A DNA stretch of 64,000 nt from Yinghuangia seranimata (GTDB taxonomy: Bacteria; Actinomycetota; Actinomycetes; Streptomycetales; Streptomycetaceae), in NCBI RefSeq assembly GCF_029953285.1, contig NZ_JASAOI010000031.1:62001-126000 (forward strand). The letters run 5' to 3'. Positions 5,212-49,195 of this stretch are shown one piece after another. Both the position numbers and the translations under genes were made by a program. The notes under the pieces were generated by a model, which worked only from the letters and a program-made list of their open reading frames with translations, searched no databases and was not told where the DNA came from. Within the stretch, counting starts at the first letter, position 1. Each line of letters begins with the position of its first letter.

Positions 5212-7794
5212 GTGACCGTGCGTCTTGGGGACCGCCTGCAATGTCCGGGCTACGCCGTGGTCGGCGTGGAGACCACCGGGCTGTCGCCGCACCGCCACCG
5301 CATCGTCGAGATCGCGGTGGCCCTGTGCGACACCGACGGGCAGGTGACCGACTTCTTCACGACGCTGCTCAACCCGGACGCCCCCGTCGGGGACTTCCAG
5401 ACGCACGGCCTCTTCGACGACGACGTCGTGGACGCCCCGGCGTTCGGCGACATCGCGCCGTGGCTGGTCGGCCTGCTGCGGCAGCGCGTCGTCGTCGCCC
5501 ACAACGCGCGGTTCGAGCTCGGCTTCCTCGAGCGCGAGTTCCAGCGGCGCCGGCACCCGACCGTGCCGCCGCTGACGATGCTGTGCACGATGCGCGAGGC
5601 CCCGGAGTACCTGCCCGAGGCGCCGCGCTTCACGCTGATGGCGTGCTGCGAGGCCGCCAGCGTCCCCGTCGACTCGGGGTACGGGGCGGCGGCCAAGGCG
5701 ATGGGCGCGGCCCGGCTGCTGGCCTACTACCTGGAGCAGGGCGCGGGCGAGGCGCGCCACTGGCAGCAGGCCCGCACGGTCGCCGCGTCGCTGAACTGGC
5801 CGCGCCGCAAGGCCGACCACGCGCCGCGGGTGTTCTCCCGCGACGACGCGCACGCCGCGCGGCGGGCCCGCGAGGAGGCCGAGCAGGCGCGTCGCCGCGT
5901 TGCCGTGTCCTACCTGGAGAAGGCGCGCGCCTCCGGCCCGCCGACCGGTGTCGGGGAGGGCCCGGACAGCTACCTCGCGGTCCTCGACGCCGCGCTCGAG
6001 GACCGGGTGATCACCCCGGAGGAGGCCACCGACCTGGCCGAACTCGCGGTGACGCTGGGCATCTCCGAGGAGCAGCGCAAGGACCTGGACCGGCTGTACG
6101 TGACCACGCTCGCCGCCTCCATGGTCGCGGCGGGCCCGGTCATCGACCGTGAGGAGCGCGCCGACCTCACGCGCGTCGCCGCCCAGCTCGGCATCCCCCG
6201 GATCGCGCTCGACGAGATCATCGCGATGGCCCGCGACACCGCCCACGACCAGGGCGCCGGTCCCGGTGCCGCCCGCATCCTCGCGACCGGGCGCGCTCTG
6301 CTGCGCGGGCAGCACGTGCTGTTCCACGGCTATCTGGCGGTCTCCCGCTCGGAGTTGGAGCAGCGGATGGCGCGCGCCCGCCTGGAGCTCGCGTCCGGGA
6401 TCCACGACCACGTCGACGTCCTGGTGGTCGCCGACCCCGACGAGTCGGCGGACCGCACCTACTGGGCGCGGCAGCGCGGCATCCGCGTGCTCATCGAGCC
6501 GGTGTTCCTGGCGCTGCTGTCCGACCTGGAGCGCGAGAGCGGCTCGGCCGCGGACGCGGCCTCCCGGGTCGCCGCCGCGGGTGCGCTGGCGCATGTGGGG
6601 GCGCCCGCGGGAGCGGCCGCGGCGGCGTCCGGCGGCGTCCCGGGGCCGCGTACGACGAGCGGGTTCCTCCTGCCGCGACCGGGCAGTTCCGGCCATACTC
6701 CGCCGCAGACGGCCGGCCTTCCGCCGTACGGCACGGACGACACCCCGACCGGGCCGGTCACCGGCGACGCCGGGATCGGCGAGGACGAGACCGAGGCCGG
6801 GACGGTGCCGATCCCGCCGATTCCTCCTCCGCCGTCGCCCGAGGTGACGGCCGCCATCAGCTCGGCGGGTACGGAGGTCCCGACGATGTCCGAGGCGCCG
6901 CTGCCCGGTGTGCCGGCCAAGCCGACCGAGCCGCCCGCCCTGACGCAGGGCGTTCCCGTCGGCGGGGCCGGGACCGGCGGCGCTCCGCTGCCGCGGACCA
7001 CCGCGTCGCCGGTGCCCGGCACGCTGCCGGCCGATCCCGTCGGCAAGTCGCCGGACGGCCCCGGCCGCCCGGTTCCGCCGAAGCCGGCCGCGCCGCCGCC
7101 CGGGACGATCGCGGCCCCGGCGGCCGCCAAGACCGCGCCCGTCGCGGCCCCGGCGGCCGCCAAGACGGCGCCTGTCGTGACCCCGCAGACGCCTGTCCAG
7201 CCCTCCGTCCCGGCGGCCGCCCAGCCGCCCGCCGAGCCGGTCGAGGAGCCCCGCGCGCTGCAGCGCGGCCAGGCCGTCACCATCGACGAACTCGGGACGT
7301 TCACCGGCGCGCTGCGCGTCGAGGCGGCGTGGTGGGGTCCGGAGGAGGTCGACGCCGACGTCATCGTGCTGGTGCTCGACGACGACCGCCGCGTGGGCGC
7401 CGACGAGGACCTGGTCTTCTACAACCAACCGGTGCACCCGAGCGGCGCCGTCCGCCTCGCGGGCAAGGTGCAGGACGGCAAGCCGGGTTCGGACTCGGTG
7501 GACATCGACGTCACCTCGCTCGAGCCGGGAAGGGTCCGGGTGCTCGTTGCGTTGACGCTGGACACGGGCTCGGGGGTCACCTTCTCCCAAGTCCCGGTCG
7601 CCGTCGGTATCGTCGACCCTGTCACACGGCGCCGCCTGGCCGACTTCCGGCTTACGGGCGGGGAGGAGACCGTGATGATCCTCACCGAGGTGTACCGTCG
7701 CGGGGACTCGTGGCGGCTGCGCACGGTGGGGCAGGGGTACGCGGAAGGTCTGGCGGCCCTGGTGACCGAATACGGAGTGGTGGTGGACGAATGA
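5212..7794 (+). CDS. Exonuclease-like / TerB-like / BRCT-like / TerD fusion protein
   Basis: 860 residues. Residues about 10-175 have the DnaQ exonuclease fold, but the catalytic set is broken. The first acid of D-x-E is glycine (VVGVETTG, E20 kept), the second motif HNARFELGF (97-105) has Glu for Asp, and the H-x-x-x-D motif is replaced by YGAAAKAMG (from 157). Residues about 250-337 form an all-helical TerB-like module. About 360-445 resemble a BRCT domain (LRGQHVLFHGYL ... VLVVADPDESADRTYWARQRGIRV). A Pro/Ala-rich linker with an 11-residue tandem repeat follows. Residues about 680-860 are a clear TerD domain with the acidic DDDRRVGADEDLVFYNQ calcium-binding loop. TerD proteins belong to tellurite/stress and membrane-linked surveillance systems. 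GTG 5212 is used; GTG 5218 is possible. Confidence 0.85.
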   Translation: MTVRLGDRLQCPGYAVVGVETTGLSPHRHRIVEIAVALCDTDGQVTDFFTTLLNPDAPVGDFQTHGLFDDDVVDAPAFGDIAPWLVGLLRQRVVVAHNARFELGFLEREFQRRRHPTVPPLTMLCTMREAPEYLPEAPRFTLMACCEAASVPVDSGYGAAAKAMGAARLLAYYLEQGAGEARHWQQARTVAASLNWPRRKADHAPRVFSRDDAHAARRAREEAEQARRRVAVSYLEKARASGPPTGVGEGPDSYLAVLDAALEDRVITPEEATDLAELAVTLGISEEQRKDLDRLYVTTLAASMVAAGPVIDREERADLTRVAAQLGIPRIALDEIIAMARDTAHDQGAGPGAARILATGRALLRGQHVLFHGYLAVSRSELEQRMARARLELASGIHDHVDVLVVADPDESADRTYWARQRGIRVLIEPVFLALLSDLERESGSAADAASRVAAAGALAHVGAPAGAAAAASGGVPGPRTTSGFLLPRPGSSGHTPPQTAGLPPYGTDDTPTGPVTGDAGIGEDETEAGTVPIPPIPPPPSPEVTAAISSAGTEVPTMSEAPLPGVPAKPTEPPALTQGVPVGGAGTGGAPLPRTTASPVPGTLPADPVGKSPDGPGRPVPPKPAAPPPGTIAAPAAAKTAPVAAPAAAKTAPVVTPQTPVQPSVPAAAQPPAEPVEEPRALQRGQAVTIDELGTFTGALRVEAAWWGPEEVDADVIVLVLDDDRRVGADEDLVFYNQPVHPSGAVRLAGKVQDGKPGSDSVDIDVTSLEPGRVRVLVALTLDTGSGVTFSQVPVAVGIVDPVTRRRLADFRLTGGEETVMILTEVYRRGDSWRLRTVGQGYAEGLAALVTEYGVVVDE
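7111..7176 (+). repeat. Two tandem 33-bp units in the TerD fusion linker
   Basis: Units 7111-7143 and 7144-7176 are nearly identical and each encodes AAPAAAKTAPV. They lie in the low-complexity linker before the TerD domain and are likely to vary in copy number between strains. Confidence 0.8.
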
Positions 7795-7966
7795 CGCGGT
7801 AGCGACCTCCCGACCGCCGCGACCGCTCCGCTCGTTTCCGGCGGGCGCCCACCCGGGTCCGGCCGGTGTCCGGCACCCGCTCCGCCCGCCCGTCCCTGTG
7901 TGACCCACCCGCCCACACCGACCCGGTCTGTGCACGCCCGGGGCGGCTTTGATAAGACTGGCGACC

Positions 7967-8710
7967 ATGCCGCGTGTGTTTTCCGGGGAACCGGACGCCG
8001 ACCTGTCCGGGGCGTCCCCGCGTACCTCCGCCTCCGGGCACTCCGGACCCACGACAGACGACCACACCGTTCCCCAACTCACGACTGCGAATCCGGTGAC
8101 GACAGCAAAGTCCGCGGCACCCAAGCCGTCCGCTCCCCGTAACCCCGTCCACGCCTCGGGCGTCCCCAAGCCCGGGCCGCCGCGCCCTGCCGCGCCGAAG
8201 CCCGGCCCCCCGCGTCCGCAGGCCGCGGTGCCCGCACCGGCCGCTCCCGTGGAGCGGACCGAACCGACCCCCAAGCCCGCTGCCGGCGGGGCGTCCGTCC
8301 CGGCCGCGCGCCAGGAGACGCAGCCGTCCGGCCCCGACATCCGCCTGGTGTCCGCCACGCCGGAGACCGCGCTGGACGTCGCGGACGAGACCGTGGACTC
8401 GCTGCTCGACCAGGGCACCGCGCCCGACTCGATCCTCGTGCTGACCACCGGTGAAGCGCACCCGTGGCAGCAGCACGAGGAGTCGTTCGGCGCGGAGCAG
8501 TACTGGCGCCAGTTCACGGAGGGCCGCGACGTGTTCTACGCACCGGCCCTGAACGACCGTCAGCTCCGTCGCGACACCGTCGTGCTCGTCGTCAACGGCT
8601 TCGCCGACCAGGCGCGCTCGACCGACGCGATCGTGTCCGCGCTCGGCGCGGGCCGCGCGGTGATCGTGTGCGGCGACCTCGACCAGGTCCGGGCGCTCAC
8701 CGGACTCTGA
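7967..8710 (+). CDS. Pro-rich protein with UvrD C-terminal-like domain
   Basis: 247 residues from ATG 7967; TAAGAC lies eight bases upstream, so the message may be leaderless. The first about 120 residues are low complexity (Pro/Ala/Lys). The remainder (about 125-247) looks like the last part of a UvrD/Rep-type superfamily 1 helicase: a 'HPWQQHEESFGAEQYWRQ' region, then 'RRDTVVLVVNGFADQAR...ALGAGRAVIVCGDLDQVRAL', comparable to the final motif where helicases end '...sRAr..LvvcGd'. No Walker A or motor domain is present, so it cannot be a helicase alone. It could be a protein-protein adaptor or a domain remnant. It sits downstream of the TerD fusion. Assignment of the domain is by eye only. 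Confidence 0.6.
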   Translation: MPRVFSGEPDADLSGASPRTSASGHSGPTTDDHTVPQLTTANPVTTAKSAAPKPSAPRNPVHASGVPKPGPPRPAAPKPGPPRPQAAVPAPAAPVERTEPTPKPAAGGASVPAARQETQPSGPDIRLVSATPETALDVADETVDSLLDQGTAPDSILVLTTGEAHPWQQHEESFGAEQYWRQFTEGRDVFYAPALNDRQLRRDTVVLVVNGFADQARSTDAIVSALGAGRAVIVCGDLDQVRALTGL

Positions 8711-8836
8711 TCGCGGAAACCGCCGCGGAGGACCGCCCGGTGCGCACGATGCGGCCGGGCGGCTCGACGCTGCCTACCACAGGCGGGGTTGCGGCGACGC
8801 AGTCCACGGACGACCCGCACACGCGGGCCGGAAGTC

Positions 8837-8939
8837 GGCTACGGTTCCTTCCCATGTCGGAATCGTCTTCGGTGGCCCGGCAACCGGGCCCGTTCTCGGC
8901 CGAACCCAGTGGGCTACGGTTCCCTTCCATGTCCGAATC
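8837..8939 (+). repeat. Imperfect direct repeat duplicating a leaderless promoter and start codon
   Basis: The 28-base segments 8837-8864 and 8912-8939 match at 25 of 28 positions and lie 75 bases (25 codons) apart. Each contains TACGGT followed eight bases later by ATG (8854 and 8929), then codons for S-E-S. Both ATGs are in frame with the same gene. Copies differ at three bases. Confidence 0.85.
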
Positions 8940-9303
8940 CCCGTCTATAGCCCAGCTGCTCGACCGCTTCCTGAGCGATCAGGAAGACCGGTTGACCCTC
9001 CAGCAGTACCGCGCGTGCAGCACCGTCGTGGACATGCTGGCCGCGTACCTCAACCGCTATGCGTTCGCGACGCTCAACGTCGTGGACCGCAAGGAGTGGG
9101 ACGAGGCGTACGAGGCCGGGGACACCGAGGCGTTCTGCAACCTGTTCGGCGTCCGCAAACTGGTCATCGGGATCAAGCCGTTCCACGGCGAGCACCTCAG
9201 GGGGCGTCTCCGCGCTCCTGAGATGGTCCAGGAGCATGCTCTGACGGTCACCTCCGAGCTCGCCGACTGGCTGGCGTCCGAGGGCCTGTCCGGCGGCGCG
9301 TGA
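8854..9303 (+). CDS. Small protein of unknown function with two alternative starts
   Basis: I do not recognise this gene. From ATG 8854 it encodes 149 residues, from ATG 8929 124. The extra 25 residues (MSESSSVARQPGPF...) are a diverged copy of the start of the shorter form. The shorter form begins with helical segments (SIAQLLDRFLSDQEDRLTLQQYRACSTVVDMLAAYLNRYA) that look like the N-terminal helical part of a SAM/core-binding fold. Then come acidic and hydrophobic blocks ending ELADWLASEGL. There is one Cys at CNLFGV. Neither start has a ribosome site; both have a TACGGT -10-like box eight bases upstream. The shorter product is preferred because the 5' extension is low complexity. No catalytic motif is seen. 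Confidence 0.65.
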   Translation: MSESSSVARQPGPFSAEPSGLRFPSMSESPSIAQLLDRFLSDQEDRLTLQQYRACSTVVDMLAAYLNRYAFATLNVVDRKEWDEAYEAGDTEAFCNLFGVRKLVIGIKPFHGEHLRGRLRAPEMVQEHALTVTSELADWLASEGLSGGA

Positions 9304-9643
9304 GGCGATCTGCGGCCCGTTGAGGGCCGCGCGGGCCGCACCCTGAGGCGAGACCGACGCGGCGCGTCTCGCCGCCCGTTCCTGACGTCCAGTCAGAGGC
9401 GGTGTGCGGAACCGCGATCCGAGCCTGCCCCGCGGCGGCCGCGGCGGACCGCCCGAGTCGGGCCGTGCCGCGTGCCCTCGTCGTGCCCCGGTCCGAGCGA
9501 CGGCCCGGCGCGCGTGACCGTTCGACGGCTCGGCGGCGAACTGCCGCTGGGTGCACACCTCGTGGAGCGTCGGCACGGTCGCGAGGACGGCACGCGGCGC
9601 TGATCCGTGCCCGGCGGGATTCCGGTCCCGCGCGGGTCTGGCG
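9304..9643. other. 340-base convergent intergenic region
   Basis: It separates a plus-strand and a minus-strand gene. Apart from the terminator-like inverted repeat at 9347-9373 I see no gene or operator; open frames here lack codon bias. Confidence 0.5.
9347..9373. terminator. Weak hairpin between convergent genes
   Basis: GGCGAGAC (9347-9354) pairs with GTCTCGCC (9366-9373) around an 11-base loop. There is no T-run. It may terminate the small gene ending at 9303. Confidence 0.4.
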
Positions 9644-10549
9644 TCAGGACCAGGCGGTCAGGGGCGGGGCCACGTCCGACAGGTAGCGCACCGACGCGGT
9701 CGCGTGCAGGGCGGGAACATCGCCTGCCGCGATGCTTCCCGGTTCTTCCACGCGTCTTGGCGCGGACGGGAGTTCGACCGCGCGGGCGACCGCCACCAGT
9801 TCACCGCCACCCGCCACGCGGACCGGCGGGGCCGACGACGCGGCGGGCGCTGCTGCGGGTGCCGGGTTCGCGACGATCGCCGCAGCGGCGGGACGTTGCG
9901 GCCTGCTCGGCGTGACCCGGCTGGGACGGGTGCCGCGCCGCCGGGTTCCGGCGGCCCGGGACGGATCGCGCGGCGTTTTCCGCGCGCTCTGGACAACGCC
10001 CGCCGTCGTGCCCGGTACGCGGACCGGCACCGGGGTGCGTCCTTCGCGGCCGTCGCCGACCACCTGCCAGCCGTCCTCCGCCAGGACGACCGCCGCGCCG
10101 CAGCGCAGGCCGTGCAGCTCGCAGGCGTCGCGCAGGCCCCACATCCACCGGCCGTCGTCCGGCTCCCAGCCGCGCGAGCCGTCGCGGCACAGCAGCAGCA
10201 CGGTGGTGCGCACCGGTGCCGGGCGGCGCAGGTCGTCCGGGACGATCATGCGCAGGTTGGCCAGGATCACGTTGCGGCACTGCCAGCCGTCCGGCTCGCC
10301 GTCTCCGGTGTCGAGCGGGAACGAGGCGCTGGCCACCGGCCGCCCTTCCGCGTCCAGGACGGCGACGACCGCGGTGCCGGCCTCGGGCCGGTGCAGTTCG
10401 TGGAGCCGCGCGACGAGTCGGCGCGGATCGCGCAGCAGCGGCACCCCGGAGGCCTGCCACGCGGCGGGGTCGAGCAGGCGCACCGGCTCGGCGGCGATGC
10501 TTCTGGTCAGCGGGGTCCGGACGGCTGAGGCGGTGGCGGCGGTGGGCAC
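9644..10549 (-). CDS. Conserved hypothetical protein, function unknown
   Basis: 301 residues from GTG 10549, with a good ribosome site (GAAGGAGG ending about four bases upstream). The N-terminal half (about 20-175) looks globular, with a 'LLRDPRRLVARLHELHRPEAGTAVVAVLDAEGRPVASASF' segment and further beta-rich strands (VRTTVLLLCRDGSRGWEPDDGRWMWGLRDACELHGLRCGAAVVLAEDGWQVV). This pattern, strand-turn-strand with a final 'W-x-V-V', recalls a JAB/RadC-like or DUF4192-neighbour fold, but I cannot assign it. The C-terminal about 120 residues are Ala/Pro/Arg-rich and probably disordered. It stands alone, with a lower-GC promoter region upstream that contains a perfect palindrome. Confidence 0.7.
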   Translation of the reverse strand: MPTAATASAVRTPLTRSIAAEPVRLLDPAAWQASGVPLLRDPRRLVARLHELHRPEAGTAVVAVLDAEGRPVASASFPLDTGDGEPDGWQCRNVILANLRMIVPDDLRRPAPVRTTVLLLCRDGSRGWEPDDGRWMWGLRDACELHGLRCGAAVVLAEDGWQVVGDGREGRTPVPVRVPGTTAGVVQSARKTPRDPSRAAGTRRRGTRPSRVTPSRPQRPAAAAIVANPAPAAAPAASSAPPVRVAGGGELVAVARAVELPSAPRRVEEPGSIAAGDVPALHATASVRYLSDVAPPLTAWS

Positions 10550-40860: not shown

Positions 40861-40911
40861 CCCAAGGATGACTTGGGTGCGCCTCCGCCGTCGCCCGAAC
40901 GGCGGAGGCGC
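40861..40911 (+). terminator. Double hairpin after the M16 pair
   Basis: CCCAAG-GATGA-CTTGGG (40861-40877) is followed directly by a 13-bp stem, 40879-40891 with 40899-40911. The pair of hairpins probably ends the M16 transcript before the P-type ATPase promoter. Confidence 0.75.
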
Positions 40912-40981
40912 GCTGCTACCCGGGTCGGATCATGAACCCTGGTTTGTACGCCAGCCTTTCCAGCCGCATACGGTGAGGTCC

Positions 40982-43387
40982 ATGACGCAGGAGACGCAGA
41001 CCGACGACGCGCCGGAGCACACCGCCGTGCTCGACATCAGCCGCGGGCTGTCCGCCGCCGACGTCGCCGAACGCGTCGCGCGCGGCGAGGTCAACGACGT
41101 TCCGGTGCGCTCCAGCCGCTCCGTCGGCGAGATCGTCCGCAGCAACGTCTTCACGCGCTTCAACGCGATCATCGGCGTGCTCTTCCTGATCATCCTGGCG
41201 GTCGGCCCGATCCAGGACGGCCTGTTCGGGTTCGTGATCATCGCCAACACCGGCATCGGCATCGTCCAGGAGATGCGCGCCAAGCGCACCCTGGACCGCC
41301 TCGCGGTGATCGGCGAAGCCAAGCCGCGGGTGCGCCGCGACGGGAACGCCGTCGCGATTTCGGCCGCCGAGATCGTGCTCGACGACGTCATCGAACTCGG
41401 CTCGGGCGACAAGGCGGTCGTCGACGGCGTCGTCGTCGAGGCGGCTGGCCTGGAGGTCGACGAGTCGCTGCTCACCGGCGAGGCCGACCCCGTGCTGAAG
41501 AAGCCCGGCGACCCGGTCATGTCCGGCTCGTTCGTGGTGGCAGGCAACGGCGCCTTCCGCGCCACCCGGGTCGGCAAGGACGCCTACGCGGCGCAGCTGA
41601 TGGAGGAGGCCAGCCGCTTCACGCTGGTCGCGTCCGAACTGCGCGGCGGCATCAGCACGATCCTCAAGTACGTCACCTGGGTGCTCATCCCCGCCGCGAT
41701 CGCGCTGGTCATCAGCCAGTACCGGATCAACGAGGACGACATCCCCGAGGCGATCCGCCGAATGGTCGCGGGCGTCGTCCCGATGGTCCCCGAGGGCCTC
41801 GTGCTGCTGACCTCGCTGGCCTTCGCCGTCGGCGTCGTCCGCCTCGGCCGCCGCCAGTGCCTGGTGCAGGAGCTGCCCGCGATCGAGGGCCTGGCCCGCG
41901 TCGACGTCGTGTGCCTGGACAAGACCGGCACGCTGACCGAGGGCGGCATGAACGTCACCGAGGTCCGCTGCCTCGACGACGCGCTCCCGGTCCGCGCCGC
42001 GCTCGGCGCGCTCGGCACCACCGACAAGCGGCCCAACGCGAGCCTCCAGGCGATCATCGACGACTGCCCGGCGCCGACCGGCTGGACCGAGGTCGCCACC
42101 ATCCCGTTCTCCTCGGCGCGCAAGTACTCGGGCGCGACGTTCGAGGTCGCCGGCGAGCGGCAGAGCTGGCTGCTCGGCGCGCCGGAGGTGCTCGCGCTGC
42201 CCGGCACGCCGATCCTGGCCGACGCCGAGGAGCTCGGCACGCACGGCCTGCGCGTGCTGCTGCTGGTCCGCACCGGGGCGCCGGTCGAGGACCTGTCGGC
42301 GCCGTACGACGCGGCCGCCGCGCACCCCGCCGCGCTCGTCGTCCTGGAGCAGCGGCTGCGCCACGACGCCGCCGACACGCTCGCCTACTTCGCCGACCAG
42401 GGCGTCGCCACGAAGGTGATCTCCGGCGACAACGCCGTCTCGGTGGGCGCGGTCGCCGCCAAGCTCGGCATCCCCGGTGCCGAGCATCCCGTCGACGCGC
42501 GCACGCTGCCGACCGACAAGGCCGAGCTGGCCGAGGTCCTGGAGAAGAACACCGTCTTCGGGCGCGTCACCCCGCAGCAGAAGCGCGACATGGTCGCGGC
42601 GCTGCAGTCCAAGGGCCACACCGTGGCGATGACCGGCGACGGCGTCAACGACGTGCTCGCGCTCAAGGACGCCGATATCGGCGTGGCGATGGGCTCGGGC
42701 AGCGAGGCGGCCCGCGGCGTCGCGCAGATCGTGCTGCTGAACAACAGCTTCGCGTCGCTGCCGTCGGTGGTCGGCGAGGGCCGACGGGTCATCGGCAACA
42801 TCGAGCGGGTCTCGAACCTGTTCCTGACCAAGACGGCGTACGCGGTGCTACTGGCGATCCTCGTGGTGATCGTCAACGTGCCCTACCCGTTCCTGCCGCG
42901 CCACCTGACGCTGCTGGCCTGGTTCACGATCGGCACCCCGGCGTTCTTCCTGGCGCTCGCGCCGAACAAGGAGCGGGCCCGCACCGGGTTCGTGAACCGC
43001 GTCCTGCGGACGGCGGCGCCGGCAGGTGTGATCGCGGGTGCGGCCTGTTTCACCGCGTACCTGATCGCCCGGAACTACTACGGCGCCACCGAGGCCACCC
43101 GCAGCGCCGAGACGTCGATCGCCACGCTGACGCTGTTCCTGGTCGCGCTGTGGGTCCTGGCGATCATCGCGCGCCCGTACACGTGGTGGCGGATCGCGCT
43201 GGTCCTGGCGATGGCGGCGGGCTTCGCCCTGGTGATCACGGTTCCGGCGTTCCAGAAGTTCTTCGACCTCAAGCTGGTCGGCACGACGATGCCGTGGACC
43301 GCGGTGGGCATCGCGGTGGTCGCGTCGGCGCTGATCGAGGTCGTGTGGCGGCTCATCGGACGCCGCAACCTGGCGGTCGACGCGTAG
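40982..43387 (+). CDS. Cation-transporting P-type ATPase (CtpE-like)
   Basis: 801 residues from ATG 40982, with TACGGT (40969-40974) seven bases upstream and also GAGG. It is a P-type ATPase with the actuator motif LTGEAD (about 165; Glu kept, but Ser of TGES is Ala), M4 motif MVPEGL (about 268-273), phosphorylated Asp in CLDKTGTLTEGG (D313) and hinge TGDGVNDVLALKDADIGVAMG. About ten helices, with no N-terminal metal-binding domains. The PEGL and TGEAD motifs match mycobacterial CtpE, a calcium-uptake ATPase. Calcium is therefore the best guess, but another divalent ion is possible. It converges with the PsuG-like gene, one base apart. Confidence 0.93.
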   Translation: MTQETQTDDAPEHTAVLDISRGLSAADVAERVARGEVNDVPVRSSRSVGEIVRSNVFTRFNAIIGVLFLIILAVGPIQDGLFGFVIIANTGIGIVQEMRAKRTLDRLAVIGEAKPRVRRDGNAVAISAAEIVLDDVIELGSGDKAVVDGVVVEAAGLEVDESLLTGEADPVLKKPGDPVMSGSFVVAGNGAFRATRVGKDAYAAQLMEEASRFTLVASELRGGISTILKYVTWVLIPAAIALVISQYRINEDDIPEAIRRMVAGVVPMVPEGLVLLTSLAFAVGVVRLGRRQCLVQELPAIEGLARVDVVCLDKTGTLTEGGMNVTEVRCLDDALPVRAALGALGTTDKRPNASLQAIIDDCPAPTGWTEVATIPFSSARKYSGATFEVAGERQSWLLGAPEVLALPGTPILADAEELGTHGLRVLLLVRTGAPVEDLSAPYDAAAAHPAALVVLEQRLRHDAADTLAYFADQGVATKVISGDNAVSVGAVAAKLGIPGAEHPVDARTLPTDKAELAEVLEKNTVFGRVTPQQKRDMVAALQSKGHTVAMTGDGVNDVLALKDADIGVAMGSGSEAARGVAQIVLLNNSFASLPSVVGEGRRVIGNIERVSNLFLTKTAYAVLLAILVVIVNVPYPFLPRHLTLLAWFTIGTPAFFLALAPNKERARTGFVNRVLRTAAPAGVIAGAACFTAYLIARNYYGATEATRSAETSIATLTLFLVALWVLAIIARPYTWWRIALVLAMAAGFALVITVPAFQKFFDLKLVGTTMPWTAVGIAVVASALIEVVWRLIGRRNLAVDA

Positions 43388-43388
43388 C

Positions 43389-44579
43389 TCAGCGGCGCTC
43401 CCGGTGTTCGGCGGACACGAGGGCGGCGGCGATCTCGGCGGCCAGGGCCGCGGTGCGTGGGCCGCGCTCGTCGTCGGCCGGGACCGGTTGGGCGAAGAGC
43501 ACGCCGCGGTCGGCGAGCCCCAGGGCGTCGCATGCGCGGATGAGCCGGGCGGCCTCGTCGGGGTGGTCGACCCGCCACTCCAGGGTGTGGTCGGAGTCGG
43601 CCGGCCGACCGGGGAAGCGGTCGGTGCCGTAGCCGACGACCGGCACGTTCAGCGACGCCAGGCGGTCGAGGGTGGCGCCGACGTCGAAGAGCGGCGCGAC
43701 CCCCGAGCAGACGAGCGCGACGCCGCAGCGTGACAGGGCCTCCAGGTCGGCGGACGCGTCCCACGCCTCGCGGGCGCCGGGGCGCGCCCCGCCCAGGCCT
43801 CCGGCGGCCAGCACGCGGATGCCCGCGAGCCGGGCCAGGTGTGCCGCGGCGCCGACGGTCGTGGCCGCGTCGCGCCCGGCCGCCACGGCCGGGGCCAGGT
43901 CGCGCAGGCCGGCCTTGGCGAGCCCTCCGGCGGCCGCGACGTGATCCAGGGCGGCGGCGTCCAAGCCGATCCGCACCCGGCCTCCGATCACCGCGATCGC
44001 CGCCGGGACCGCGCCCGCGGCGCGTACGGCGGCCTCGGTCCGGCGGAGTGCCCCCAGGGGGTCGGGCCGGTGCGTGGCCCGGCACACGGCGGTGCTCGCC
44101 AGCGCGACCACCGGGCGTCCCGCCGCCAGTGCCGCCGCGACCTCGGGGAGGACCTCCACCGGGTGCGCGGCGCCGCTGCCGCCGGGCTCGCGCACCGAGG
44201 GGCGCGCATGCGGACTGCTCGGGGCGGGCGGGCGCCGGGCGCTCGGGAAGGGCGGACGAGGCGGGCCCTCGAACGCGGGCGGCGGAGGGCGACGCGCGGG
44301 CGGGAGCCGCACGGCGTCCGCGTGGGGTGCCGGCCGCACCGGCGCTCCGGGGCCCGTGGGCTCGTCGCGGGCCGGGGCGGCGGCCCGGCCCTGCGCGCGG
44401 GCGTCCGCGGCGGTCCTGGCGGCCCCGGGGCCGTTCCCGCCGACATCCCCCGGCTCGTCGCCGGAAACGGTGTCAGGGCCGTCCCTGGACGGTGCCGCGG
44501 CATGCTCCCGCGGCCCGTCCCCGGGCGGCGGCACGGGCCGGGCGGACACTCCGGGTGCCCCGGGCACTCCGATGATCAT
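43389..44579 (-). CDS. PsuG-like protein lacking the catalytic lysine
   Basis: 396 residues from ATG 44579. The first about 130 are Pro/Ala-rich and probably disordered, so a later start is possible. The rest is clearly related to pseudouridine-5'-phosphate glycosidase (PsuG/IndA): GAVPAAIAVIGGRVRIGLD, GRDAATTVGAAAHLARLAGIRVLAAGGLGGARPGA, DASADLEALSRCGVALVCSG, and VPVVGYGTDRFPG. But the E-S-T-x-x-x-H start has become ALASTAVCRAT. The Schiff-base Lys of 'CAGAKSILD' is replaced (CSGVAPLFDVG), and the last about 60 residues of the family are missing. It is therefore probably not a glycosidase. The N-terminal tail and loss of catalytic residues suggest a binding or regulatory role. Confidence 0.72.
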   Translation of the reverse strand: MIIGVPGAPGVSARPVPPPGDGPREHAAAPSRDGPDTVSGDEPGDVGGNGPGAARTAADARAQGRAAAPARDEPTGPGAPVRPAPHADAVRLPPARRPPPPAFEGPPRPPFPSARRPPAPSSPHARPSVREPGGSGAAHPVEVLPEVAAALAAGRPVVALASTAVCRATHRPDPLGALRRTEAAVRAAGAVPAAIAVIGGRVRIGLDAAALDHVAAAGGLAKAGLRDLAPAVAAGRDAATTVGAAAHLARLAGIRVLAAGGLGGARPGAREAWDASADLEALSRCGVALVCSGVAPLFDVGATLDRLASLNVPVVGYGTDRFPGRPADSDHTLEWRVDHPDEAARLIRACDALGLADRGVLFAQPVPADDERGPRTAALAAEIAAALVSAEHRERR

Positions 44580-44657
44580 GGCGTGGCGCGGCCTCCCCAA
44601 GGCGTCGCCGGCCGCGGCCCCCGGTGGACGGGCCGCGCTGCACGGACCCGGCGGCGC

Positions 44658-44996
44658 TTACCCGCGCGGCTGGTACAGCACCGCGGCCCAGCCGTCGGGG
44701 CCCACCACCTGGGCGCGCACCTCGTGCGGCCCCTCGACGGGCTCGGCGACCTTGAACCCGGCCTCGCGCAGCGGCGCCAGCGCGGCCTCCAGGTCGGCGA
44801 CCTTCACCATCACCGACGCGCCCTCGCCCTCGCGGTCGGTGCCCGACAGCGCGATGCGGTTGCCGTTGAGGTCGAACTGCGCCCAGCGGTCGCCGTCCAC
44901 GAACGTCGGCTCGGTGCCCAGCACCGCGCGCATGAACGCCACGGCGGCGGTCATGTCGGCGACGGGGAATGCGGCGGACAGGCCCAGGGCGGACAT
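44658..44996 (-). CDS. VOC/glyoxalase-fold protein
   Basis: 112 residues from ATG 44996, with GGAGG six bases upstream. A single beta-alpha-beta-beta-beta module pair of the vicinal oxygen chelate superfamily: LGLSAAFPVADMTAAVAFMRAVLG (strand then helix), FVDGDRWAQFDLNGNRIALSG, then VKVADLEAALAPLREAGFKVAEPVEGPHEVRAQVVGPDGWAAVLYQPRG. The typical metal His/Glu ligands are not obvious, so it may be a binding or resistance-type member. The operator-like palindrome at 45043-45059 lies between its likely promoter elements. Confidence 0.85.
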   Translation of the reverse strand: MSALGLSAAFPVADMTAAVAFMRAVLGTEPTFVDGDRWAQFDLNGNRIALSGTDREGEGASVMVKVADLEAALAPLREAGFKVAEPVEGPHEVRAQVVGPDGWAAVLYQPRG

Positions 44997-45042
44997 GGCG
45001 ACCTCCAACGTGAGTGACCGGTGTATGGCGGTTCGGACTACG

Positions 45043-45099: not shown

Positions 45100-46113
45100 T
45101 CACGACGGGAACTGGTCGGCGGACACGTCGGTCTTCGACGCGTTGCCGCCCGCGACCGCGTACAGCGTCAGCGTGTACGCCATGTACTGCGACCCCTTCG
45201 TCTCGAAGTCCAGGGTCTCGTCGAAACGTTGGAACCGGCAGTCCCGGCTGAAGCGCTTGCCGTCCGGGTCCCAGTCCGTGCCGGTCGTGTAGTACGCCGT
45301 CAGCTTGCCGTCGGGAATGCCGTCGACGGTCACCGTCGCGCCGGCGCGCACGTACAGCTCGCGCACGATCGTGTCGCCCTTGGTGAGCTCGACCACGGCG
45401 TCCCCGGCGCCGTCGGCGTTCTTCACGGTCAGCTCGCCGGGCCCGCCGCGCCGGCCGCCGCCCAGGCTGCCGTTCGCACCGCGCCGGCCGGGCTCGTCCT
45501 GCCGCTCGGGGACGAACGACCCGACCCGGTACGCCCCGTCCACGGCCGCGAGCGCGGCCGCCGCGTCGCGCACCGCCTGCGCGCCGGGCAGGTTCGACGC
45601 CCGGGGGATGCCGGACGCCCCCGTGCATAGCCGCCCCGAACGCGCCGATCCGGAAAGGCCGTCGAGGTCCTTCTCCAGGCCCGACAACGCCGCCGTCAGC
45701 GTCCGGGCGCCGGCCTCGGCAGCCTCGGGCGGTGTGACGGCCGCCAGTGCGGTCCGCGCCGCGCCGGCGCGCCGGGCGGCGTCCGTGAACGCCGAGGCGA
45801 GCGCCTGCGGCGTTCCCGCGGCCTCGACCGCGGCCATTCCCGGGGCGATCTGCGCGTCGACGGCGGCCAACGCCGCGCGGAACTCCTCGGGGCCGACGCG
45901 CGCGACCGAGGCCGGCGCGGACGACGGCGACGAGGGCGACGGCGACGCCGGCGTATCGGGCGCGCTGTCCGCGGGGGCGACCGACGCACCGCTCGGCGAC
46001 GGCGTGGTCCCCGAGGCCCGCACCCCGCCCTGGCCGCATCCGGCCGCCGCGAGAACGGCGACGCATGCGACAGCGACCCACGGCGTCCTCGGTCGTGCGG
46101 ACATGCCCGGCAT
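45100..46113 (-). CDS. Lipoprotein with low-complexity segment
   Basis: 337 residues. The start MPGMSARPRTPWVAVACVAVLAAAGCGQ has a lipobox LAAAGC (Cys26), so it should be lipid-anchored outside the membrane. A Ser/Pro-rich linker (about 35-70) leads to a helical domain (about 75-150). A central segment follows with GRLCTGASGIPRASNLP and then a basic Gly/Arg-rich loop (RGANGSLGGGRRGG). The C-terminal about 110 residues are a beta-rich domain (TVKNADGAGDAVVELTKGDTIVRELYVRAGATVTVDGIPDGKLTAYYTTG). The family is unknown; a cell-wall or binding function is likely from location. Confidence 0.85.
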   Translation of the reverse strand: MPGMSARPRTPWVAVACVAVLAAAGCGQGGVRASGTTPSPSGASVAPADSAPDTPASPSPSSPSSAPASVARVGPEEFRAALAAVDAQIAPGMAAVEAAGTPQALASAFTDAARRAGAARTALAAVTPPEAAEAGARTLTAALSGLEKDLDGLSGSARSGRLCTGASGIPRASNLPGAQAVRDAAAALAAVDGAYRVGSFVPERQDEPGRRGANGSLGGGRRGGPGELTVKNADGAGDAVVELTKGDTIVRELYVRAGATVTVDGIPDGKLTAYYTTGTDWDPDGKRFSRDCRFQRFDETLDFETKGSQYMAYTLTLYAVAGGNASKTDVSADQFPS

Positions 46114-46423: not shown

Positions 46424-49195
46424 GTGGAGCCGACCGAGCCGCACCCCTCGGCGCCCGGCACCCCGCCGACCGGGCGGGTGCCCGCGCCCCCGGCCTTTCC
46501 CGAGCACTGGGAGGCCGACGTCGTGCTGCGCGACGGCGCGACCGCCCACCTGCGCCCGGTGGGGCCGCACGACGCCGACCGGCTCGTCGCGTTCTACGCA
46601 CGGGTCTCCGACGAGTCGAAGTACCTGCGGTTCTTCACGCCGTACCCGCGGCTGTCCGAGCGCGACGTGCGGCACTTCACCAACCACGACTGGGTCGACC
46701 GTGTAGGGCTCGGCCTGTTCGTCGGCGACGAGATGGTGGCGATCGTCCGCTACGACCGCATCGGCCCGGACGGCCGCGCGGTGAAGACCGGCCCGCACGG
46801 GCGCTCGTCGACCGCAGAGGTCGCCTTCCTGGTGCAGGACGACCAGCAGGGCCGGGGCGTCGCGTCCGTCCTCCTCGAGCACATCGCCGACGTCGCCCGC
46901 GAGCGCGGCATCCGCCGGTTCGTCGCGGACGTCCTGCCGTCCAACCGGCGCATGATGAAGGTCTTCACCGAGGCCGGGTACACGCAGCAGTCCGCCTTCG
47001 AGGACGGCGTCGTGCGCCTCAACCTCGACCTCGCGCCGACCGACACCTCCACGGCCGTCATGCTCGCCCGCGAGCACCGCGCCGAGGCCCGGTCCACCGC
47101 GCGGCTGCTCAATCCGCGGTCCGTCGCGGTGATCGGCGCCGGCCGCAACGAGGGCACGGTCGGCAACACGCTGCTGCGCAACCTGGCCGCCAGCGGCTTC
47201 ACCGGTCCCGTGTACGCGGTCAACCCCAAGGCCGGCGACGAGCCGATCGAGGGCGTGCCCGTCTACCGCACCGTGCTCGACGCCCCGGGCGAGGTCGACC
47301 TCGCGATCGTCGCGGTGCCCGCCCCGGCCGTGCAGCGGGTCGTCGAGGAGTGCGGCCGCCACGGCGTGCGCGGACTGGTCGTCATCTCCTCGGGATTCGC
47401 CGAAACCGGCCCCGAAGGCCGTGCGTTGCAGCGCCGCCTGGTGCGCACCGCGCGCGCCCACGGGATGCGCGTGATCGGCCCGAACTGCCTGGGGATCCTC
47501 AACACCGACCCGGACGTCAGCGTCAACGCGAGCCTGTCGCCGCGCATGCCGCGCCGCGGCCGGGTGGGCATGTTCGCGCAGTCCGGCGCGCTCGGCATCG
47601 CGATCCTGGAGTCGACGGTCAACCGCGGCATCGGCCTGTCCACGTTCGTGTCCGCGGGCAACCGCGCCGACGTCTCCGGCAACGACCTCCTGCAGTACTG
47701 GGAGGACGACCCGGCGACCGACGTGGTTCTGCTGCACCTCGAATCGCTGGGCAACCCACGCAAGTTCACCCGCCTCGCGCGCCGTGTCGCGCGCCGCAAG
47801 CCGGTCGTCGCCGTGAAGAGCGCGCGGCACGCGCAGGGCGTCCCGCTCGGGCACGCCGCCCGCGCGCTGACCCTGCCGGACCAGGCCGTCGACTCGCTGT
47901 TCCGGCAGGCCGGCGTCATCCGTGTGCCGACCGTCGCGGAGATGTTCGACGTCGCCCAACTCCTCGCCTACCAACCGCTTCCCGCGGGCGACCGGGTCGC
48001 GATCGTCGGCAACTCCGACTCGCTCGGACTGCTCGCGCAGGACGCCTGCACGAGCGCCGGCCTCGTGCCGCTGCGGCCGGTCGACCTGACCACGTCGGCG
48101 ACCGCCGAGGACTTCCGCAAGGCCCTCGGCGACATGCTGGCGTCACCCGAATCCGACGCCGTGGTCACGGTGTTCATCCCGCCGCTGACCACGTCGGGCG
48201 ACGAGGTCGCGGCCGTCATCGCCGAGATGGCCGAACGCGCCGCCGAGGTCGGCAAGCCGCTGCTGGCCACCTACCTCGCGCACGAGGGCCTGCCCACCCA
48301 GCTGCGCCGCCTGGACGTCGACGGCGTCCCCGCGCTCGGCTCCGTGCCCTCCTACCCGGCGCCCGAGAACGCCGTGCGCGCGCTCGCCGAGGTCGTCCGC
48401 TACGCGGCCTGGCGCCGCCGCCCGGCAGGCGACGTCGTCGAGTTCGAGGACGTCCGGCCCGACACCGCGCGCGCCCTGGTCCGCGCCCGGCTCGGCGCCG
48501 CCGACGCGGCCGGGCTGTCGCCCGGCGAGGCCGCCGAACTCCTCGGCTGCTACGGCATCCACCCGCTCCCGGCCGTCCGCGTCGACAACGAGGACGCCGC
48601 GGTCGCCGCCGCCGAGCGGATCGGCTACCCGGTCGTGCTCAAGACCATCGCCGAACACCTGCGGCACCGCGTCGACCTCGACGGCGTACGCCTCGACCTG
48701 GGCACCGAGGTCGGCCTGCGGCGCGCGTTCCGGCGGATGGCGGCGCGCCTCGGCGGACCCGACCAGGCGCGGCTCGTGGTGCAGCAGATGGCGCCGCGCG
48801 GCGTCGCGACCACGGTGGGCCTGACGTACGACGAGTCCTTCGGCGCGCTGCTGCGCTTCGGCCTCGCCGGCCCGGCGTCCGAGCTGCTCGGGGACGTCGC
48901 GCACCGCGTCGTCCCCGCGACCGACCAGGACGTCGCCGACCTGGTCCGCGACATCCGCGCGGCGCCGGTGCTGTTCGGCTACCGCGGCGCGCCGCCGGTC
49001 GACGTCGAGGCGTTGGAGGAACTGCTGCTGCGCCTGTCGCAGTTGGCCGACGACCTGCCGCAGGTCACGTCGGTGACGCTCGACCCGGTCGTGGTCACGG
49101 GGGAGGGCCTGCGGGTCCTCGACGCGCGCGTGCGGCTCTCGCGGCCGCCGATGCGGACGGACCTGGGGCCGCGGGCGATGCGCGACCCGCACTGA
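46424..49195 (+). CDS. pat: Pat-like GNAT acetyltransferase fused to acyl-CoA synthetase (ADP-forming-like) domains
   Basis: 923 residues from GTG 46424, with TAGTGT (46411-46416) seven bases before it, so the message is leaderless. An N-terminal GNAT domain (about 35-185; LVQDDQQGRGVASVLLEHI and VLPSNRRMMKVFTEAGY, the acetyl-CoA loop) is followed by the CoA-binding Rossmann (about 215-310), ligase domain (about 320-600) and ATP-grasp (about 670-900) of ADP-forming acyl-CoA synthetases. In the ligase domain the catalytic His block is changed (GHAARAL instead of SHTGALAG), so synthetase activity is doubtful. In Streptomyces such proteins acetylate acetyl-CoA synthetase. The long order GNAT first is the actinobacterial type. 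Confidence 0.9.
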   Translation: MEPTEPHPSAPGTPPTGRVPAPPAFPEHWEADVVLRDGATAHLRPVGPHDADRLVAFYARVSDESKYLRFFTPYPRLSERDVRHFTNHDWVDRVGLGLFVGDEMVAIVRYDRIGPDGRAVKTGPHGRSSTAEVAFLVQDDQQGRGVASVLLEHIADVARERGIRRFVADVLPSNRRMMKVFTEAGYTQQSAFEDGVVRLNLDLAPTDTSTAVMLAREHRAEARSTARLLNPRSVAVIGAGRNEGTVGNTLLRNLAASGFTGPVYAVNPKAGDEPIEGVPVYRTVLDAPGEVDLAIVAVPAPAVQRVVEECGRHGVRGLVVISSGFAETGPEGRALQRRLVRTARAHGMRVIGPNCLGILNTDPDVSVNASLSPRMPRRGRVGMFAQSGALGIAILESTVNRGIGLSTFVSAGNRADVSGNDLLQYWEDDPATDVVLLHLESLGNPRKFTRLARRVARRKPVVAVKSARHAQGVPLGHAARALTLPDQAVDSLFRQAGVIRVPTVAEMFDVAQLLAYQPLPAGDRVAIVGNSDSLGLLAQDACTSAGLVPLRPVDLTTSATAEDFRKALGDMLASPESDAVVTVFIPPLTTSGDEVAAVIAEMAERAAEVGKPLLATYLAHEGLPTQLRRLDVDGVPALGSVPSYPAPENAVRALAEVVRYAAWRRRPAGDVVEFEDVRPDTARALVRARLGAADAAGLSPGEAAELLGCYGIHPLPAVRVDNEDAAVAAAERIGYPVVLKTIAEHLRHRVDLDGVRLDLGTEVGLRRAFRRMAARLGGPDQARLVVQQMAPRGVATTVGLTYDESFGALLRFGLAGPASELLGDVAHRVVPATDQDVADLVRDIRAAPVLFGYRGAPPVDVEALEELLLRLSQLADDLPQVTSVTLDPVVVTGEGLRVLDARVRLSRPPMRTDLGPRAMRDPH

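Follow-up and report, generated by a model that had tools for sequence, protein, structure and literature searches.

Genes and features of the psuG locus

The window, i.e. the whole 64,000-nucleotide stretch of DNA that was analysed, contains on its minus strand a degenerate psuG ORF of 396 aa (43389..44579). The ORF list and translation place its stop codon at 43389 and its ATG at 44579; an in-frame TTG is situated upstream, at 44600. The translated sequence matched PF04227 (Indigoidine_A/PsuG) with an E value of 4e-66. The match covered residues 153–399 of the 403-aa form that begins at the TTG and positions 1–246 of the 291 in the profile, and its score of 223.8 bits places the protein in the family, for which the curated cut-off is 25.2. 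The E. coli PsuG chains 4gim (E 2.2e-39) and 4gij (E 8e-39) were matched with phmmer. The assignment of the core to the pseudouridine-5′-phosphate glycosidase family, made in the original prediction, is thus borne out.

The PsuG-like core comprises 256 aa (43389..44159, minus strand; PF04227 E 9.1e-67), counted from a GTG at 44159, and resembles PsuG in alignments and in predicted fold. It is preceded by an extension of 140 aa (44160..44579, minus strand) that is rich in Pro, Ala, Gly and Arg, has a G+C content of 83.8% and was modelled at low confidence (14 ten-residue blocks with pLDDT 34–59, 13 of them below 55). A Pro-rich tail of 130 residues had been described for this protein. A Pro-rich stretch is indeed present, but it is 140 residues long and N-terminal, and the word 'tail' is misleading.

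The gene is flanked by a convergent P-type ATPase gene (40868..43387, plus strand; TIGR01494 above its cut-off) and, on the other side, by a gene for a glyoxalase-like protein that adjoins it on the minus strand (44658..45008; PF00903, 23.6 bits with a cut-off of 20.6). Beyond a lipoprotein-like ORF (45100..46113, minus strand) lies a divergent gene, termed here pat, that encodes a GNAT acetyltransferase/acyl-CoA ligase-like fusion (46424..49195, plus strand). Its identification rests on synteny and on NCBIfam matches below the curated cut-offs; synteny also supports that of the ATPase, and the glyoxalase gene occupies the same position in a second genus. The lipoprotein-like ORF has a lipobox-like AAGC, as judged by eye; it gave no Pfam match, and no match at E 1e-8 at the locus in the four relatives examined.

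The window derives from a draft genome of 9.8 Mb in 113 contigs (G000), which was compared with two other genomes of its genus, that of the sister species (G001) and a third (G018), and with four genomes of the second genus. A box of 17 bases, GCCATGATCATCGGAGT, which contains the ATG of the window ORF (44566..44582, minus strand) and has the palindromic core ATGATCAT, is identical between the two genera upstream of psuG. Of 122 genomes searched for exact matches, five (the window genome and the four of the second genus) contain it once each and the remaining 117 do not; a search that allowed one mismatch covered eight genomes. The sister species is without the box, and no glyoxalase gene was matched in the 20 kb around its psuG. 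The box may serve as a start region, as an operator or as both. No other single observation argues as strongly as its perfect conservation that something is still being made or regulated at this place.

In the second genus, the ATG of the box opens an extension of 33 codons (33 aa) in frame with psuG, if the same ATG is used there; counted to a shared PEV motif, the extension in the window is 104 codons longer. Over 40 codons from this ATG, differences between genomes of the second genus at codon positions 1, 2 and 3 numbered 0, 0 and 3 in one pair, 3, 2 and 9 in two pairs, 9, 5 and 12 in two pairs, and 7, 7 and 9. This pattern suggests, though not clearly, that the stretch after the ATG is coding. 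It was also considered that translation may begin only at the GTG at 44159, with the Pro-rich stretch non-coding; the box and its ATG, common to the second genus, and the distribution of differences over codon positions speak, though not clearly, against this.

Loss of K166, E31 and C-terminal residues

In E. coli PsuG, Lys166 forms an iminium with open-chain ribose 5-phosphate, assisted by Glu31, according to excerpts of PMC7722734. The same excerpts name Thr131 and Thr139; the ATGG threonine is residue 130 by the count used here, and the numbers disagree. In an alignment of the window protein with E. coli PsuG (native numbering being, by our own count, the chain number minus 23), E31 was replaced by Ala (44097..44099), K166 by Ala (43695..43697), H137 by Arg (43782..43784) and the ATGG threonine by Ala (43803..43805), all on the minus strand. 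The corresponding codons, in the sister gene and in the window, are GAG and GCG for E31, AAG and GCG for K166, CAC and CGC for H137, and ACC and GCC for the threonine. K93 (43914..43916, minus strand), S147, D149 (43746..43748, minus strand) and the GG motifs are retained. D149 belongs to the metal site. An Ala is likewise found at the K166 position in chain 4gim, an engineered mutant.

No lysine is placed at the nucleophile position by the alignment, and the predicted loss of the Schiff-base lysine is confirmed. K93 was tried as the missing lysine and rejected, since it is present in the window protein. Four E. coli residues had been singled out for alignment, and they divide evenly, E31 and K166 being replaced and K93 and D149 retained. 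The claim that the E-S-T start of the family had been replaced holds for the glutamate; serine and threonine are still present, as A-S-T. Because the iminium lysine and the assisting glutamate are both replaced, it is close to certain, as judged from the sequence, that the protein has lost catalysis and cannot be a PsuG glycosidase that operates by the Lys166 iminium mechanism.

The short C-terminus that had been noted was also observed. The core has 256 aa, compared with 304 in the sister PsuG, and approximately 45–50 residues are missing at the C-terminus relative to full-length PsuGs. The end of the window protein resembles the natural last helix (0.9% of 2000 shuffles scored as high) more than it does the helix before the gap (30%). 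For this reason, the shortening is likely to derive from an internal in-frame deletion (junction at approximately 43455..43472, minus strand, from alignments) rather than from simple truncation. A frameshift was considered as its origin and rejected, as the DNA alignment showed no clear frameshift.

A PsuG-like fold is predicted for the core. The AlphaFold2 model of the window protein has a mean pLDDT of 67.6, disordered N-terminus included; 16 of the 26 ten-residue blocks of the core have pLDDT values of 82–94, and the others 61–75. A Foldseek search with this model returned 19 PDB chains with E values of at most 0.001; among the matches were E. coli PsuG, the Arabidopsis homologue, AlnA and TM1464 of T. 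maritima, with E values from 6e-25 to 4e-19. PF04227 and the predicted fold are thus common to the window protein, E. coli PsuG/YeiN (4gij–4gim) and the Arabidopsis pseudouridine 5′-monophosphate glycosylase (8k05–8k07). The E. coli enzyme differs in having K166, E31, H137 and the ATGG threonine, which are replaced here, in having the C-terminal residues that are missing here, and in being without the 140-residue extension. Since the fold prediction is made from relatives, it says little about stability. The model of the sister PsuG (mean pLDDT 90.4) has three C-terminal helices (238–255, 259–273 and 277–302); that of the window protein ends in a single long helix (374–395), and two of the three are not seen. 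The blocks that hold the E31, H137 and K166 positions have pLDDT values of 64, 67 and 74 in the window protein vs 91, 84 and 91 in its sister.

Losses were also counted at 77 positions that are invariant in 39 intact PsuGs, a set which comprises the 37 top-scoring PF04227 loci from family and order-wide searches, the G001 PsuG and a second PsuG of the window genome (see below), and which, being chosen largely by PF04227 score, leans to conserved copies. The window protein keeps 49 of these positions and has lost 28, of which 16 are substituted and 12 missing. Eleven of the 12 are in the C-terminal region (the TPF/YLL motif and conserved Asn residues); the twelfth is a Phe at core position 184. 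When each of the 39 other PsuGs was left out in turn, it kept 77 of the resulting 77–82 invariant positions. The G001 PsuG, which keeps all 77 by construction of the set, kept 77 of 82 when left out.

Orthology, synteny and a second psuG copy

In the sister species, a full-length PsuG, the single PF04227 match in that genome, is encoded between the counterparts of the ATPase and pat genes, and it retains the E, T, H and K of the catalytic positions. Identity between the window and G001 is 64% for PsuG, 88% for the ATPase and 87% for Pat. The PsuGs of the four genomes of the second genus are 69–71% identical to that of G001. In three of these genomes (G004, G030 and G037), pat, glyoxalase and psuG lie together, with the ATPase gene 4–6 kb further on. 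The PsuG of G018, the remaining genome of the window's genus, is a different one (46% identity to the window protein), and none of the pat, glyoxalase or ATPase neighbours was found in the 20 kb around it.

A tree of 66 proteins grouped the window protein with that of G001 (support 100/95), inside a clade with the second genus (100/98). The end branches were 1.3 for the window protein and 0.23 for G001; the program issued a warning about meeting long branches and flagged the place of the long rows, the window's included, as unsure. Tree and locus together identify the PsuGs of G001, G004, G030 and G037 as orthologues of the window copy. The second genus shares the start box too, and the PsuGs of G001 and the second genus keep the catalytic residues, which the window copy does not.

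The presence of a second, intact psuG in the genome had been put forward as something to be checked, and a second, full-length psuG was found on contig C21. It encodes a protein of 303 aa (PF04227 E 1.5e-112) in which the catalytic residues are present, and it is followed by a gene for a PfkB-family kinase (PF00294). The pair, together with a divergent ORF (9521–10432) that resembles a LysR-type regulator by eye, occupies positions 7573–10432 of locus L003. The pseudouridine-kinase model PRK09850 scored 24.7 of 540 bits on the kinase, far below its cut-off; other sugar-kinase models scored above PRK09850, and these too were below cut-off. The kinase is therefore only putatively psuK-like, on the basis of its PfkB family and its position. 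Among G000, G001, G018, G004 and G030, it was matched at E 1e-15 in G000 only, which suggests that the psuG–kinase pair arrived, or was kept, in the window's lineage alone. The C21 PsuG has a long branch, to which the program's warning also applies, and its origin is unsure.

PsuG is patchily distributed in the family, with a PF04227 match in 87 of the 121 genomes sampled. A second, shortened match was found in none of the other genomes of that sample, save for a 40-residue fragment in G082. PF04227 was matched in 329 of 391 genomes in an order-wide search, and a protein search gave matches in 221 of 297; several genomes in these searches had two or three matches, and further degenerate psuG copies may exist in other genomes. 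A contig search with the window protein yielded 593 pattern matches and no relative; the G001 PsuG yielded 49 loci of 55–66% identity. Matches to plasmid records (44 with the window protein and 66 with the C21 protein) were all below 60%.

Faster nonsynonymous change and GC-ward losses

Rates of change were estimated with our own implementation of a codon model, on five-taxon and eight-taxon sets, with the neighbouring ATPase, Pat and M16 peptidase genes as controls. Nonsynonymous changes per codon amounted to 0.38 (five taxa) and 0.40 (eight taxa) on the window branch and to 0.12 and 0.10 on the G001 branch. It is apparent that nonsynonymous change in the window psuG has been 3–4 times faster than in its sister. 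The ω of psuG was 0.18 and 0.21 (five and eight taxa) on the window branch and 0.07 elsewhere, a 2–3-fold increase as a point estimate; for the neighbours on the window branch, it was 0.08 (ATPase), 0.04 (Pat) and 0.07 (M16). Pairwise, the pN/pS-based ω between the window and G001 was 0.41 for psuG, 0.24 for the ATPase, 0.16 for Pat and 0.27 for M16; two further codon comparisons (d2 and d4) concerned frames that probably do not represent genes and were set aside. Parsimony counts of third-position changes were alike (26/80 in the window, 28/82 in G001), whereas at the first and second positions the window (26/167 and 25/187) exceeded G001 (10/151 and 8/170) by factors of 2.4 and 2.8.

A separate ω for the window branch was weakly favoured over a single ω (LRT 3.5 for five taxa, 6.6 for eight). 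LRT values near 3–4 are not telling, since controls reach them too: Pat gave 3.8 on the window branch, in the opposite direction, and on the G001 branch psuG gave 3.0 and M16 3.6. An ω of 1 over the whole window branch was rejected (LRT 10.7 and 10.8 for five and eight taxa). A second formulation, which used 256 codons with the poorly aligned end included, gave an ω of 0.11 vs 0.04, with LRTs of 3.0 against one ω and 13.5 against ω = 1. The window-branch value would fit a mixture of functional and relaxed time. A gene that had been functional during part of the branch would lead to rejection of ω = 1, and so would constraint that persists; since the test rejects full neutrality for the branch as a whole, room is left for a retained non-catalytic role.

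The changes have a marked direction. At sites conserved in four relatives, AT to GC changes occurred at 32 of 124 in the window psuG and 4 of 97 in that of G001, and GC to AT changes at 16 of 310 and 11 of 306, respectively. AT to GC changes in the window's neighbours were few (ATPase 11/561, Pat 11/428, M16 4/253). When protein columns were grouped into G, A, R and P vs all others, a grouping chosen after the trend had been seen, the window had changed in 5 of 64 and 30 of 89 columns (p 1.6e-4) and G001 in 7 of 66 and 6 of 65 (p 1). Changes that end in G, A, R or P made up 20 of 35 in the window and 3 of 13 in G001. The four changed active-site codons fit this GC-ward trend. G+C contents at codon positions 1, 2 and 3 are 0.86, 0.61 and 0.94 in the window psuG and 0.80, 0.54 and 0.95 in that of G001. 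G+C content across the window, 0.73 on average, is highest in the gene and its extension (0.86 at 44151–44450), which hold 15 of the 25 most G+C-rich 300-base windows.

Mutation has been reported, in excerpts of PMC2936535, to be AT-biased in bacteria generally, and GC-ward drift would thus need a bias in fixation. We interpret the GC-ward losses as relaxed constraint under a GC-favouring fixation process, which is assumed.

No disruption of the frame was found over the 396 codons, and all length changes are in frame (about 104 codons gained at the N-terminus, one codon lost, and about 45 to 50 lost at the C-terminus). In simulations of neutral change at equilibrium G+C of 0.75–0.95, 235 core codons stayed open in 40–85% of cases after 60 or 120 changes and in 30–75% after 215; at G+C of 0.5–0.6, they stayed open in 7–52%. 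An open frame was for this reason rejected as more than a weak sign of function at this G+C content.

Probable erosion and its alternatives

We consider it probable that the resident psuG, made redundant by the C21 pair, has lost catalysis and is eroding. The gene would have been inherited at a fixed place, in the order pat–glyoxalase–psuG–ATPase. The C21 psuG and its PfkB-family kinase would then have taken over pseudouridine breakdown and released the resident gene from selection, after which AT-containing codons (such as those for E, K, H, T, I, F and Y) would have been replaced through drift, for the most part by Ala, Arg, Pro and Gly codons. We infer that any product of the gene does nothing. 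In the original prediction, the protein was seen as a repurposed fold. Erosion is preferred, because the losses are dispersed over the protein and GC-ward, much of the C-terminal helical region is gone, and a full-length PsuG is encoded at this locus in the sister species. Nor was there positive support for the suggested ligand, a pseudouridine or ribose-phosphate derivative.

The main alternative, rather unlikely but worthy of consideration, is that the protein is glycosidase-dead and yet translated and kept for a non-catalytic role. Sensing of ribose 5-phosphate or pseudouridine-phosphate, membership of an oligomer with the C21 PsuG, and regulatory partnership with PsuG and the kinase can be proposed as such roles. 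Translation would then begin at the conserved start and give the protein a novel Pro-rich and disordered N-terminus, which we likewise regard as doubtful. The rejection of ω = 1, the frame-preserving length changes, the intact start box, the 16 core blocks of high pLDDT and the retention of K93 and D149 are consistent with such a role; the dispersal of losses that track base composition, the two C-terminal helices not seen in the model and the lower pLDDT around E31, H137 and K166 are not, and the 121 family genomes gave no sign of a kept shortened family, the G082 fragment aside. Among the matches listed from the open-licence PubMed Central literature, no description of a non-catalytic PsuG was found; if the window protein were kept, it would be one.

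A new enzyme on the PsuG fold that employs other residues, in the manner of the prealnumycin C-glycosynthase AlnA (4ex8, 4ex9), is very improbable. AlnA, an active C-ribosylating enzyme according to excerpts of PMC7722734, belongs to the same fold family; the match of the predicted fold of the window protein to AlnA (4ex8, E 1.3e-20) falls only slightly short of that to PsuG, and a fast branch could reflect adaptation. However, the window gene has no recognised biosynthetic cluster among the neighbours examined, its losses look compositional, and the Lys166 iminium on which PsuG chemistry depends in those excerpts has no lysine here. A sequencing or assembly error that makes an intact gene look broken can hardly be the explanation. 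The draft state of the genome (113 contigs) and the position of the locus at the G+C peak, where reads can be poor, would favour it, but the substitutions are dispersed, no frameshift occurs over 396 codons and third-position divergence equals that of the sister.

Taken as erosion, the locus represents a modest case: a resident metabolic gene that seems to have been caught in the course of erosion, with a second copy in the same genome and, in the sister species, a full-length orthologue at the corresponding locus. More generally, erosion in a window with 73% G+C need not close the frame, and the gene can pass for a purposefully rewritten enzyme, since the codons of lost catalytic residues drift towards Ala, Arg and Pro. 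Another G+C peak was observed in the window at 6851–7350, where 300-base windows reach 0.84.
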